DNA of 39,332 nt. Origin: Acidobacteriaceae bacterium (GTDB lineage: Bacteria > Acidobacteriota > Terriglobia > Terriglobales > Acidobacteriaceae). The notes below the pieces were generated by a model. It saw nothing but the letters and a program-made list of their open reading frames with translations. It searched no databases and was not told where the DNA came from. Each line of letters opens with the position of its first letter. Position 1 is the first letter of the stretch. The position numbers and the translations under genes were made by a program. The stretch spans positions 1-39,332 of the forward strand of contig PMAT01000134.1 of the NCBI GenBank assembly GCA_003152695.1, given 5' to 3'. Below are positions 7,119 to 39,332 of this stretch, one piece after another.

Positions 7119-7251
7119 AGAAAGGGCCGTCGTGCGGTGGTGCAGCCGCGATCTCCTGCGATAGCATCCAATTAAATCTGTGAAACCCGTTTTATCTCTT
7201 CCATCTCGTCTGCGACGGTCGCCTGAGATTCTCCTTGCTGGGAGCCACAAG

Positions 7252-7989
7252 ATGAAGATGAACATCAGATTGGCCGTGTTTTACCTTTTGCTGGGCGCGA
7301 CCGCGTTGTCTCAGACTCCGGCAAACGGCCCGAGCACATCCGCCGGAGAACATGCGCCATCGGTCAGCAGTGCGCCCGTGTCGTCGGTGTTGCCCGATTT
7401 GGACAAACTGCGGGCAGCGGCATCACAGGCCACGCTCGATCTCGGCCACCTGCGAATCGACAAATGGAAAGCGGACGCAAACTCCAAACAGCAAGCCCAG
7501 GCCAACGCCGATTCCATCCAGCGCAACCTCACCTCCGCGTTGCCAGTATTGATCGACGCGGTACGCTCGGCGCCTCAGGACTTAAACGCCGAGTTTAAGC
7601 TCTATCGCAATCTCAACGCCCTGTACGACGTCTTCGCATCTCTGACGGAAGTCACCGGGGCCTTTGGGCCAAAGGGCGACTACGAGGCGCTAGCACAGCA
7701 ACTGGAGACCTTCGATTCCGTGCGACGCAACCTGGGGGATGCGCTGGAGCAATTGACTTCCTCCACGCAGTCCGAAGTGGTCCAGTTACGGACTCAGGTC
7801 CGCGCCTACCAACAGGCTGCGGCGGCAGCGCCTCCCAAAAAGGTTGTCGTCGATGACACCCAGCCGGCGAAGAAGACCGTGCACAAAAAGAAGAAGCCGG
7901 CAGCCCCTAGCGGCAGCTCCTCTTCGCCAGCATCCGATGCCAAATCCAAAGACAGCACCGGCGCCGCAAGTTCTGCTCCCAAACCGTAG
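7252..7989 (+). CDS. secreted helical protein with Lys-rich tail, function unknown
   Basis: A 245-residue protein with a short Sec signal peptide (MKMNIRLAVFYLLLGATALS, cleavage probably before QTPA). The middle (about 55-195) is predicted by eye to be mostly alpha-helical, with regular hydrophobic spacing and no cysteines. The last 45 residues are Lys/Ser/Ala/Pro-rich (KKTVHKKKKPAAP) and look disordered and strongly basic. The frame is open from a GTG at 7180, but the ATG at 7252 has GGGAG six bases before it and gives a clean signal peptide, so I use it. It starts 133 bases after tpiA and may be read from the same transcript. I do not recognise a family. Confidence 0.75.
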   Translation: MKMNIRLAVFYLLLGATALSQTPANGPSTSAGEHAPSVSSAPVSSVLPDLDKLRAAASQATLDLGHLRIDKWKADANSKQQAQANADSIQRNLTSALPVLIDAVRSAPQDLNAEFKLYRNLNALYDVFASLTEVTGAFGPKGDYEALAQQLETFDSVRRNLGDALEQLTSSTQSEVVQLRTQVRAYQQAAAAAPPKKVVVDDTQPAKKTVHKKKKPAAPSGSSSSPASDAKSKDSTGAASSAPKP

Positions 7990-8010
7990 CTGTAGGGCAT
8001 GAGGTAAATC

Positions 8011-8323
8011 CGGGAGTGTCTTCCCGGTGGGAGCCCCCGCATTTATGCGGGGGAAAGGGCCGCTTCAGCGCTCCGGAAAAGGTCGGCTTTGATCACGCGC
8101 TTTAGCGCCGGGAGTGAAAAGCCCAGGGCTAAAGCCCATTTCAAAATTGACTGCTTTTCCGCTGGACTGAAGTCCAGCTCCCCCTGCTGAAGCAGGGGGC
8201 TTCCACCAAGAGCTTTCTCCATGTAAGGCCCGCGCTGCCCGTGCAACCGGGTACACCAATGAGCGGGAACATTTGCACCCCATCCGGGGTCTATCTGATC
8301 AAGCCTTAGCCCGGGAACCGGGC
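8011..8323. repeat. type A hairpin array (tandem short stem-loops), plus flanking hairpin
   Basis: The 456-base gap between 7989 and the sigma-factor gene holds a run of compact stem-loops with very short loops. They are 8011-8026 (CGGGA arms), 8034-8053 (CCCCCGCAT arms), 8061-8070, 8097-8107, 8126-8137, 8161-8178 (GCTGGACT arms) and 8180-8199 (CCCCCTGCT arms). A further GCCCGG hairpin stands at 8309-8323. Several have the same core, CT-[TG]-[ACT]-AG. The 8161-8205 part is repeated in opposite orientation at 39231-39276. No convincing gene lies here: frames on the minus strand (for example 8043-8327) are translations of the palindromes. It may be a REP-like element; no transposase is nearby. 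Confidence 0.8.
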
Positions 8324-8445
8324 GCATTGTGTGTAGCTACGGCGAGATTGATTGGTTGGCTGCGAAACGGGGTGGTGGTGGCGCCGGGACCGTCGCGGAC
8401 AGTTGTTGCGGACTCCGAATCTATTTATCATTGAGGTACGCCGTC

Positions 8446-9168
8446 ATGGCGGGAGCAACAACCTTGAGTGACCTCGCAAGTGCGCTGGATGTCCGCACCG
8501 CGGAAGCCTCGATCGTGGCCGAACTGAAGACCGGATCGGAAGATGCTTTTTACTGGCTCATCGCGCACTATAACCAGCCGGTTTACAGTCTGGTGTACCG
8601 GATTCTGGACGATCCGTCCGACGCCGCCGACACCGCCCAGGAAGTCTTTATCAAGGTGTTTCGCGGGATCAGGAATTTCAACGCCGACTCCAGCCTGAAG
8701 ACCTGGATCTACCGGATTGCGGTGCATGAGGCGTCCAACCATCGCCGCTGGTGGTTCCGGCACAAGGTGCAGGAAATGTCGATCGAGCCGGCCAGCGGGA
8801 ACGGAAGTGAGCAGCCTTGCCTGGGAATGAAAGACACGCTGGTGGATGAAGGCAAGTCTCCACTGCAAAACGCATATGACGAGGAATTACGGGCCCGGGT
8901 GGAATGCGAACTGAAGGCCCTGAACGAGCCGTATCGGACAACGGTGATTTTGCGCGATATTGAGGAACTCTCTTACGAGGAAATCGCCGAGGTGATGAAT
9001 ATCTCGCTGGGGACGGTGAAGTCGCGGCTGGTGCGCGGACGCGATGCGCTGCGCAAACGCATGGAGCGTCACCTCGAGGATTTCGGAATGGGCCCCGGCG
9101 TGGCGCGCCATAGGAAACAACGCAAGGATGGTTCGGTGGGTGGTCAGAAGGTTGAGGTCATGCCATGA
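8446..9168 (+). CDS. ECF-type RNA polymerase sigma factor (sigma-70 family, RpoE/SigW-like)
   Basis: A 240-residue sigma factor with two domains. Region 2 (about 25-105) contains YSLVYRILDD, DAADTAQEVFIKVFRG and SLKTWIYRIAVHEASN. Region 4 (about 165-220) contains EPYRTTVILRDIEELSYEEIAEVM and the helix-turn-helix ISLGTVKSRLVRGRDALR. A linker of about 50 residues, longer than in minimal ECF factors, separates them. There is a short basic tail after region 4. The frame is open from 8329, but the ATG at 8446 has TGAGGT about eight bases upstream and removes a low-complexity lead, so it is preferred. Its stop overlaps the start of the next gene (ATGA), the usual layout of a sigma/anti-sigma pair; by family precedent the anti-sigma factor holds it at the membrane. 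Target promoters cannot be inferred here. Confidence 0.93.
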   Translation: MAGATTLSDLASALDVRTAEASIVAELKTGSEDAFYWLIAHYNQPVYSLVYRILDDPSDAADTAQEVFIKVFRGIRNFNADSSLKTWIYRIAVHEASNHRRWWFRHKVQEMSIEPASGNGSEQPCLGMKDTLVDEGKSPLQNAYDEELRARVECELKALNEPYRTTVILRDIEELSYEEIAEVMNISLGTVKSRLVRGRDALRKRMERHLEDFGMGPGVARHRKQRKDGSVGGQKVEVMP

Positions 9169-37425: not shown

Positions 37426-39219
37426 ATGGCTTCGACCTTAAACTCTGTTTGGATTACCCCACATCCCAAAGGGACTCAGGCGCGAGTGCTGCTGAGCTCG
37501 GTGTTCGGCCCGTATGCGCAGGACGACGAATTCGGCAGCCGCTCCATCAATCCCATGGAGCTGTATCACAACCAGGTCACGCGCGAGCAGGGCAGCTTCT
37601 CGTTGCGCATGTTCCATCGCTCCTGGGGACTGATGATGATCCAGAAGAACATCTCCGCGCCCAGCACGCTGCTCGACTTCCCCACGCTCAAAGATTTCCA
37701 GCGCGAACTGACCTCCTCCGAATACGACATCGTTGGGATTTCTGGAATCATTCCGAACTTTGGCAAGGTGCGCGAGATGTGCCGCCAGGTCCGCCGCCTG
37801 TCGCCCAACTCCATCATCGTGGTGGGCGGACACGTCGCTGCCATCCCCGAACTGGATACGTTAATTGATGCCGATTACATCGTTCGCGGCGAGGGCATCT
37901 CCTGGATGCGCCGTTATCTAGGCGAAGATCCAGAAGCGCCCATCGCTCATCCGGAAATCGTCTCCGGCTTCGGTTTCCGCATCCTGGGAATGAGCGTGCC
38001 CGACAGCAAGTGCGATACCGCCGCCACCATCATTCCTTCGGTCGGATGCCCGCTGGGATGCAACTTCTGCGCTACCTCTTCCTTCTTCGGCGGCAAAGGC
38101 AAGAGCATTCACTTCTACGAAACGGGAGACCAGCTCTTCGACGTCATGCGGCAGATGGAGGGTTCTCTGGGCGTGAATTCGTTCTTCATGATGGACGAAA
38201 ACTTCCTGCTGAATCGTCCGCGCGCCATGCAGCTTCTGGCGCGCATGAAGCAAGCCAACAAGAGTTGGGCGCTCTATGTTTTCTCGTCGGTGAATGCCAT
38301 CCGCAAGTACACCATGGAAGAGCTGGTGCAACTTGGCGTTTCATGGATCTGGGTGGGACTCGAGTCGCCCAACTCCAGCTATGCCAAGTTGAAGAATTCC
38401 GATACGCGAGCTCTGGCGGCGGAGCTGCGCCAGCACGGCATCAAGATCCTCGGTTCAACCATCGTGGGCCTCGAGCACCACACGCCCCAGAACATTCACG
38501 CGGAAATCGAATGCGCGGTCTCGCACGGCACTGATTTCCACCAGTTCATGCTATACACGCCGGTGCCGGGCACACCGCTATTTGCCCAGATGCAGCAAGA
38601 AGGCCGCATGCTCGACGACGTGGACCTCGCCGACATTCACGGGCAATTCAAGTTCAACTACAAGCACGCCGCCATCTCGCGTGACGAGTCGAAAGTATTT
38701 CTCGACTGGGCTTTCCGCCATGACTTCGAGCGCAACGGCCCCAGCTTGTTTCGCATTTGCGAGACTACCTTCCAAGGATGGAAGCGCTATCACAACGATC
38801 CCGACCTGCGAGTGCGCCGTCGCTTCGCCGCGGAAGCCAGGAAGTTGCGCACCACTTACAATGCGGCGCTCTGGGCCATGGAGAAGCGGCTTCGCACGAC
38901 CAATCCGCCGATATCGAAGCGGATTCGTGAACTGCGGCGCGAAATCGAAGGCGCTTTTGGTACGCTCACTCGCGTGGTGCGATCCGTGGTCGGCCCGGTT
39001 TTGCTATGGACTTCGAAGCGCGAAGACAAGCGGCTGGCCAATGGCGTCACCTACGAGCCGCAGACATTCGTCGAGCGTCGCAACTGGATCGCCGACAAAC
39101 TACGGCACACCGCGGACGTCATCACCATGCGCCCGCGCCATAGCGAGCAGCCGTTGACCAACATCGCAGCCGCACGGGTTGCGGTGGATAGCTTCAGCCA
39201 GGTGACGACGGGCGATTGA
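37426..39219 (+). CDS. radical-SAM protein with N-terminal B12-binding-like fold
   Basis: A 597-residue protein. Residues about 85-165 resemble the Rossmann-type B12-binding domain of class B radical-SAM enzymes (EYDIVGISGIIPNFGKV, SIIVVGGHVAAIPE, ADYIVRGEG), but the cobalamin-ligand motif DxHxxG is not visible. The SAM domain carries the 4Fe-4S motif GCPLGCNFC (Cys208, Cys212, Cys215), followed by FFMMDENFLLNRPRA, WIWVGLES and GSTIVGLEHHTPQN, the expected barrel strands. A C-terminal region of about 190 residues (from about 405), rich in Arg and helices, has no match I know. Related proteins include BchE, HpnJ and methyltransferases that act on lipids or aromatic rings. No biosynthetic partner genes are next to it. 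It is divergent from the drug exporter. The reaction cannot be named. Confidence 0.85.
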   Translation: MASTLNSVWITPHPKGTQARVLLSSVFGPYAQDDEFGSRSINPMELYHNQVTREQGSFSLRMFHRSWGLMMIQKNISAPSTLLDFPTLKDFQRELTSSEYDIVGISGIIPNFGKVREMCRQVRRLSPNSIIVVGGHVAAIPELDTLIDADYIVRGEGISWMRRYLGEDPEAPIAHPEIVSGFGFRILGMSVPDSKCDTAATIIPSVGCPLGCNFCATSSFFGGKGKSIHFYETGDQLFDVMRQMEGSLGVNSFFMMDENFLLNRPRAMQLLARMKQANKSWALYVFSSVNAIRKYTMEELVQLGVSWIWVGLESPNSSYAKLKNSDTRALAAELRQHGIKILGSTIVGLEHHTPQNIHAEIECAVSHGTDFHQFMLYTPVPGTPLFAQMQQEGRMLDDVDLADIHGQFKFNYKHAAISRDESKVFLDWAFRHDFERNGPSLFRICETTFQGWKRYHNDPDLRVRRRFAAEARKLRTTYNAALWAMEKRLRTTNPPISKRIRELRREIEGAFGTLTRVVRSVVGPVLLWTSKREDKRLANGVTYEPQTFVERRNWIADKLRHTADVITMRPRHSEQPLTNIAAARVAVDSFSQVTTGD

Positions 39220-39230
39220 TCAGACTCTTG

Positions 39231-39332
39231 GTGGGAGCCCCCTGCTTCAGCAGGGGGAGCTGGACTTTAGTCCAGCGGAGAAAAGCGTTTGCTCTTAAAA
39301 AGGCTTTAGCTGTGATGTTTCAATAGGTTGTT
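39231..39332 (+). repeat. type A hairpin array, second copy (cut by window end)
   Basis: Just after the radical-SAM stop come a CCCCCTGCT-arm hairpin (39238-39257), a GCTGGACT-arm hairpin (39259-39276), then an A-rich spacer with AAAAGCG and a partial GGCTTTAGCT stem. This is the reverse complement of 8126-8205 in the same order, with loops TC and TT in place of GA and GA. It may also end transcription of the preceding gene. Confidence 0.85.

Follow-up and report, generated by a model that had tools for sequence, protein, structure and literature searches.

A hairpin-array repeat in an Acidobacteriaceae genome that resembles IS5-type MITEs at its ends and RAYT-associated palindromes in its core

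The window, by which we mean the whole 39,332-nt stretch of DNA analysed, carries two copies of a hairpin repeat that are likely to be old insertions of an approximately 262-bp non-autonomous IS5-type MITE with a RAYT-like hairpin core. The repeat is a family with its own anatomy and ends, with 4-bp target duplications among the elements bearing such ends, with empty sites in related genomes and with an IS5-family element of a related genome that shares its ends; the common ends, the duplications, the empty sites and the IS5-family element with the same ends are what make an IS5-type MITE the most likely explanation.

Copy 1 comprises 6 hairpins in series at 8034-8199, which we checked with our own scripts. 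That serial stem-loops stand here, as an initial annotation of the sequence had proposed, is borne out by the fold of 8005-8212, which is better than all 200 dinucleotide shuffles (z = -5.8 for the plus strand as RNA and -5.9 for the minus strand as DNA; 0/200 controls as good). The core of copy 1 (8026-8212, plus strand) is an imperfect inverted repeat of approximately 187 bp with two three-hairpin halves. On the plus strand, H1 (8034-8053) has the loop TTTA, H2 (approximately 8061-8070) the loop TTCA and H3 (8097-8108) the loop TTTA; H2 is imperfect in this copy, and most copies other than this one have the H2 stem GGAGCGC. The second half, also on the plus strand, consists of H4 (8126-8137, loop TAAA), which in some other copies is a landing site of other transposons, H5 (8161-8178, loop TGAA), a landing site in two other copies, and H6 (8180-8199, loop TGAA). 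In the inward direction, each half consists of an 8-bp hairpin (the outer one), one of 7 bp, a stretch of approximately 23 nt and a 4-bp hairpin (the inner one), and the consensus loops of the core hairpins are TTYA. A default-setting repeat search of 7600-8600 reported no repeat.

H5 and H6 occur again in inverse orientation at 39238-39276, in agreement with the recurring block described by the initial annotation. The altered loops that it saw there (GA versus TC/TT) came from a comparison of opposite strands: when both copies are read on the same strand, H6 is identical in the two (CCCCCTGCTGAAGCAGGGGG) and H5 is one base apart (TGAA/TAAA). Copy 2 is only half a copy because the contig ends inside it; its right half, with H6, H5 and one H4 arm plus loop, lies at 39218-39310 on the minus strand and has an intact orthologue in a related genome (G002, L092).

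A search with the 8026-8212 core gave 28 matches, fragments included, in the genome to which the window belongs (the own genome; 141 contigs, 4.50 Mb, 99.38% complete), which is far more than two and disposes of the objection that the two window copies might be the only ones. The core is found in 5 of 9 genus genomes and absent from the other four, one of them 99% complete. Of 61 genomes searched (the own genome and others of the genus, family, order and class), 8 yielded a match of any length, and long matches were confined to 5 of these, every one a member of the genus. An exact search of genome_contigs for the H1 block gave 36 stretches in five assemblies (Acidobacteriaceae, Acidobacteriales or Acidobacteria), while viral_contigs gave 0, and a phage origin was rejected on this result. 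Among hairpins with a stem of at least 7 and a loop of 4, TTYA/TRAA loops occur in 14 of 48 in a 400-kb sample of the own genome and in 0 of 34 after shuffling; ten of the 14 fall within three copies of the element, and four are other hairpins.

To describe conservation, we aligned 49 of the 50 near-full copies, leaving out L169 (the orthologue of L147); some of the remaining rows are orthologous to each other. Mean column identity over the 49 copies is 0.972 for stems, 0.943 for loops and 0.772 for spacers, so that the loops, nearly as constant as the arms, cannot be called free. Depending on the hairpin, 36 to 45 of the 49 copies retain full pairing, with G-T allowed. Paired substitutions are few, yet not zero: double changes affect 4 of 38 pairs (6/500 shuffles as high) and 7 of 1853 cells (0/500 as high), and the covariation score is 0.035 versus 0.029 in shuffles (0/500) and 0.011-0.023 in slid versions. 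Further pair types number 13 with a shuffled mean of 12.9, i.e., without excess, so that most measures of covariation, but not all, lie above both kinds of control (shuffled and slid). Between the two halves of the core, 8 of 19 stem pairs differ and 8 of these 8 are still paired (hand count on the consensus). Taken together, the identity and pairing results show that the hairpins keep their letters as well as their pairing. Selection on structure rather than on sequence, as proposed earlier, finds no support in these data, since stems, loops and exact letters are all kept and covariation among copies is small.

Given the strong fold, and hairpin letters that are kept better than the spacers, the array might be thought to be retained for the host, as a transcript 3'-end structure, an attenuator or a nucleoid-protein site. 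Its positions are compatible with such a use, as copy 1 lies between two same-strand ORFs, one without a Pfam match (7180-7989) and one encoding an ECF-type sigma factor (8329-9168), and copy 2 starts from a stop codon. However, the only intrinsic terminator in 7900-8450 is at 7952-7967, outside the array, and we discarded a terminator within the array, where none with a T run is present. A folded RNA, one of the options raised by the initial annotation, was discarded too: Rfam at its gathering threshold gives 0 matches in the whole window, and promoter- and terminator-like sites inside the array number 0. In addition, the corresponding sites of sister species are empty, and other elements interrupt some copies, making a host function very improbable.

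Many copies extend beyond the core to approximately 262 bp with a terminal CAGGCTGCKGAAAAASTC, and intact members are bounded by 18-bp inverted repeats of this sequence. In the aligned flanks, CAGGCTGCGGAAAAACTC lies approximately 46 nt to the left of the core and its inverse approximately 9 nt to the right. When an outer end is called recognisable at up to 6 mismatches in 18, the 50 near-full copies divide into 14 with both ends, 7 with only the left, 9 with only the right and 20 with neither; of 2000 trials with shuffled flanks, 20 reach the end score on the left and 18 on the right. The both-ended copies are short and without a transposase gene, 12 of them spanning 257-264 bp and the others 234 and 249 bp. 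Neither copy in the window has recognisable outer ends (9 and 10 mismatches of 18 for copy 1), which counts against the MITE reading; because these ends have decayed, both copies are probably immobile now.

The end pattern is widespread, with 251 matches in the 9 genus genomes versus 1 for the reversed pattern. It is commonest in G001 (89 matches), a genome without the window element. We paired ends into 43 elements, which became 39 after removal of overlapping calls and one duplicate site, and 18 of the 39 have an exact 4-bp target duplication, where 3.2 are expected from re-paired flanks (5000 permutations, maximum 9). Exact duplications of 2, 3 and 5 bp occur at 2, 0 and 1 of the 39 elements. 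The duplicated words include TGAA, TTCA, TTTA, TAAA, TAGA and CTAG, and also CCAG and GTCA. Outside the duplication, the flanks pair with each other at no fewer than 6 of 8 positions at 11 of 39 sites (expected 4.0, P = 0.0002), and the element sits in a hairpin loop at L160 (ACGGC-TGAA...TGAA-GCCGT), L151, L196, L226 and L259; the majority of the 39 sites are no such clear hairpin. Within the 262-bp family itself, only 4 of 14 both-ended copies (L160, L048, L101 and L091) have an exact 4-bp duplication, a further point against the MITE reading. The two window copies have no readable duplication. Elements of 109-196 bp have ends in common with the 262-bp family and other interiors. Elements of approximately 140 bp with CAGGCTGC ends and a different interior are present at L067, L151, L196, L199, L226, L259 and other loci. 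The left flank of L101 contains an approximately 110-bp block rich in ACGGAGACACGGAG, which is found in dozens of places in several genus genomes.

Comparison with related genomes, using eight joined flank pairs as queries and retrieving contiguous matches, identified empty sites. The insertion footprint of copy 1 (7996-8262, given without strand) is approximately 267 nt, comprising the core and the decayed outer ends; its bounds were read by eye from the alignment to G006 and are uncertain by a few nt. A complete element together with its 4-bp duplication would have about this length. The own genome (G000), G002 and G008 all carry copy 1, and G006 (L333) and G003 (L346, 73% identity) lack it. 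Copy 2 is intact in G002, with 266 nt where empty sites have 6, and its site is empty in G006 (L354) and G008 (L355). Its start coincides with the stop codon of a gene for a B12-binding radical-SAM protein (37426-39219). Since the empty sites have GATTAG where the window has GATTGA, the stop codon now seems to be supplied by the insertion. At L032, L040, L048 and L101, the empty-site alignments contain further indels beyond the element. An origin of the repeat by chance or through misassembly, for which one could cite the position of copy 2 at a contig end, is hardly credible, as copy 2 is intact inside a G002 contig and copy 1 is common to two other species (L144, L145). The suggestion of a mobile REP-like element is thus on the right track, with many copies, presence and absence between sister genomes, target duplications of the end family and a core partly like RAYT ends.

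A candidate for the source of the ends is a 1287-bp IS5-family element from a related genome (L302), CAGGCTGCGGAAAAA...TTTTTCAGCAGCCTG, which has the same ends as the MITE and a protein scoring 267.6 bits against NF033581 (NCBIfam cut-off 140). A second element, L303, is 1284 bp long, and the ends of L302 and L303 read CAGGCTGCGGAAAAA...TTTTTCAGCA(G/T)CCTG. Both are from the same taxonomic family as the window genome and from other genera, so that the IS5 partner comes from another genus, which again counts against the MITE reading. A third, L301 (1300 bp), has CAGGATGCTGAAAAA ends and an IS5-family protein (264.2 bits, cut-off 140). IS5 relatives duplicate YTAR. The flanks of the L302 and L301 elements are ttag/ctag and ctaa/ctag and those of L303 aata/ctag, with the L302 element's own flanks agreeing in only 3 of 4 bases, which suggests a 4-bp duplication that is not exact. 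L301-L303 derive from 30 loci fetched after a search with an IS1182 model, which has matches in 73 of 120 family genomes and above its cut-off in 19. DUF772 (IS5/IS1182 transposases) occurs in 6 of the 9 genus genomes. The own genome gives 0 DUF772 matches and just two IS1182-type ones, both sub-threshold and the best at C69 60358-60666, a result that also counts against the MITE reading. This best match is an IS1182-like transposase C-terminal fragment (82 bits, below the cut-off), and an element copy, at C69:57427-57615, lies approximately 2.7 kb away. IS1182 elements were considered as end donors and rejected in favour of the IS5-type L302, because their ends (e.g., L288, L290 and L262) share only the inner TGTTGAAAAA and have no clear 4-bp duplication. 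In the mechanism that we propose, an IS5-family DDE transposase acting in trans would bind the ends and move the element, and insertion would duplicate 4 bp, mostly TNNA and often the tetraloop of another GC-rich hairpin. The cargo between the ends is the 187-bp core of two inverted half-modules, each with three hairpins.

An alternative explanation is that the 187-bp core is itself the mobile, REPIN-like unit, moved by a RAYT (HUH tyrosine transposase), with the CAGGC ends belonging to a second element around some copies. The core has the inverted doublet layout, with conserved ends and a variable spacer, as is described for REPINs in the consulted sections of PMC3116915. RAYT genes (PF01797) are present in 8 of the 9 genus genomes and, in a sample of 60 genomes from the family, in 51. 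However, there are 0 matches in the own genome, which is the exception within the genus even though it is 99.38% complete, so the search for a RAYT gene that the initial annotation had advised came out negative here.

Hairpins do accompany these genes. They stand on both sides within 400 bp at 22 of 40 RAYT loci versus 0 of 40 at 950-1350 bp (stem 7 or more, 4-nt loop; some loci are shorter than this outer zone); as controls, two-sided hairpins occur in 0 of 15 IS loci and one hairpin in 16 of 480 own-genome windows. Inward TTYA loops are on both sides at 11 of 40 RAYT loci and outward ones on both sides at 0 of 40 (stem 6 or more), and other RAYT loci carry loops other than TTYA. For spacing, we used 49 loci (nine matches from G150), some of them overlapping, which together hold 69 hairpins with stems of at least 8: the next hairpin is 37-39 bp away inward in 29 of 55 cases and 28-30 bp away outward in 36 of 48. 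For 38 other own-genome hairpins, 17 neighbours were counted, 2 at 37-39 bp and 3 at 28-30 bp. Many acidobacterial RAYT ends (loci L103-L142 and L357-L365) have a sharp three-hairpin layout with 28-30 and 37-39 bp between centres. The inward, central-to-inner distances of the window core, 37 and 38 bp, fit RAYT ends, but its outer-to-central distances of 22 and 20 bp do not fit the 28-30 bp of RAYT ends.

At the level of sequence, the product of the L138 gene is identified by NF047646 as a REP-associated tyrosine transposase (103.5 bits, cut-off 80). At the left end of this gene, an 8-bp hairpin with the loop TTTA is followed 38 bp on, by reading, by GGGCTTTAGCCCCGG, an inner hairpin equal to the element consensus and one base off from the window copy. 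The bare 10-mer GGTGGNAGCC or its inverse occurs in 3 of 49 RAYT loci (L113, L115 and L130). None of the 49 loci, some of which overlap, has the H1/H6 hairpin after GGTGGNAGCC, with related hairpins present, and none has the GGTGGGAG end with its hairpin. The core starts with GGTGGGAG, and a GTAG or CGTC tag was not found at its foot. We also looked for left-half pairs facing inward 0.5-1.5 kb apart, and there are none among the matches listed. An exact partner RAYT was sought and is present in neither the 40-locus nor the 49-locus set. Because five copies in two assemblies (JAICXB and PMAA) seem core-only, the core may move by itself. The copies apparently without outer ends are L068, L094, L096 and L100 (JAICXB) and L075 (PMAA); their spacers are strongly different and their hairpins conserved. 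Weighed against footprints of approximately 262 bp and not 187 bp for the window copies, the own genome without PF01797, and a core whose ends, spacing and foot depart from those of RAYT loci, a RAYT-driven core unit is an unlikely explanation. Under the preferred IS5-type MITE reading, the core may derive from the inverted ends of a RAYT gene that was lost.

Like REPINs, RAYT-associated REPs and TIRtrons, as sections of PMC3116915 and PMC3733652 describe them, the element is an interspersed inverted doublet of palindromes with a variable spacer, and the hairpins that flank many RAYT genes in our analysis extend the likeness to RAYT-associated REPs. According to the section of PMC3733652 consulted, TIRYT genes (RAYT relatives) with inverted ends occur in Acidobacteria. 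Unlike REPINs, the element has three hairpins per half, no GTAG foot, and outer CAGGC ends with 4-bp duplications, and it resides in a genome without PF01797 matches, with no examined RAYT sharing its ends. It resembles IS5-family MITEs in being short and non-coding, in its IS5-common inverted ends, in the 4-bp duplications and in its presence or absence between relatives, and it differs from them in the RAYT-like hairpin array inside and in the share of insertions in hairpin tetraloops. The element joins two kinds of mobile DNA that are usually kept apart, DDE-type MITEs and RAYT-associated palindromes. Within the portions of the open-licence PMC literature that our search covered, there is no account of it.

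Tetraloops are also the places where some partial copies are cut, exactly in the H4 or H5 loops. A AGTGTGYGTGAGAAC-ended family has inserted at CTGAAG in L154 (the place of L073; H5) and at CTAAAG in L054 (the place of L045; H4), with the respective six bases on both sides of the insert in each case. The same pattern of this family is seen in other hairpins at L250 and L256, and L028 and L084 have one of its junctions each. The insert at L154 carries a RAYT-like triple hairpin. The AGTGTGYGTGAGAAC-ended family is MITE-like, with CTRAAG loops and a 6-bp duplication, and L207 has CTTTAG/CTTCAG. H4 loops are also cut by a third type of insertion, at the window end and the C87 end in the own genome, in G002 (L067) and in G006 (L228), bringing to three the transposon types in tetraloops of such hairpins. 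Over all 33 partial-copy breakpoints, 15 lie within 2 nt of a loop versus 9.2 expected (P = 0.02), a weak excess; we do not take breakpoints as a general loop signal, and the argument for loops rests on the individually readable cases.

We tentatively propose, as a possibility short of an even chance, that within this lineage of acidobacteria the TTYA/TRAA tetraloops of RAYT-type hairpins could be a docking site common to unrelated transposases, which might read either the loop structure or the loop word. The proposed users would be IS5-type elements (4-bp TNNA), the AGTGTGYGTGAGAAC-ended family (6-bp CTRAAG) and IS481-type elements. Insertion would then be self-feeding and nested, because non-autonomous members carry such hairpins and each insertion adds docking sites. 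Targeting of palindromes and stem-loops is already known: in the sections of PMC1525189 that we consulted, IS1397, ISKpn1, IS621 and ISPpu9 insert into REP palindromes, and in those of PMC5678879, IS1272 targets stem-loops and is reported to replace its target without duplication. One IS1272 pathway set out there, where attack by the ends falls on the 5' side of each loop, predicts a duplication of the loop only. The elements described here share with these systems the use of palindromes as targets. They differ in that several transposon types use TTYA/TRAA loops, some of them carrying such hairpins, and this convergence of several types on one loop word is the unusual part. Should hairpin loops be the choice of transposases from several classes, target choice guided by structure would have a clean and testable signature in a duplication that matches the loop.

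Such repeats break assemblies, and the end of the window is an example. Here the H4 loop of copy 2 is probably interrupted by an IS481-type element, in whose end the contig breaks off (39311-39332, minus strand), to judge from L359, where a similar end encodes the C-terminal part of an IS481-type transposase (46 residues; 33.7 bits, E = 2.7e-8); the IS481-type score is under the full-length cut-off, and rve_3 (25.2 bits) is just under its own. The remainder of copy 2, with the matching insertion end, is the end of contig C87 of the own genome, and the window contig and C87 are probably adjacent in the genome. The sequence TGTGRTGTKTCAAKAGGTTGTT is present at both contig ends (39311-39332 in the window; L015/L356 at the C87 end), in each case reading into the missing insert.
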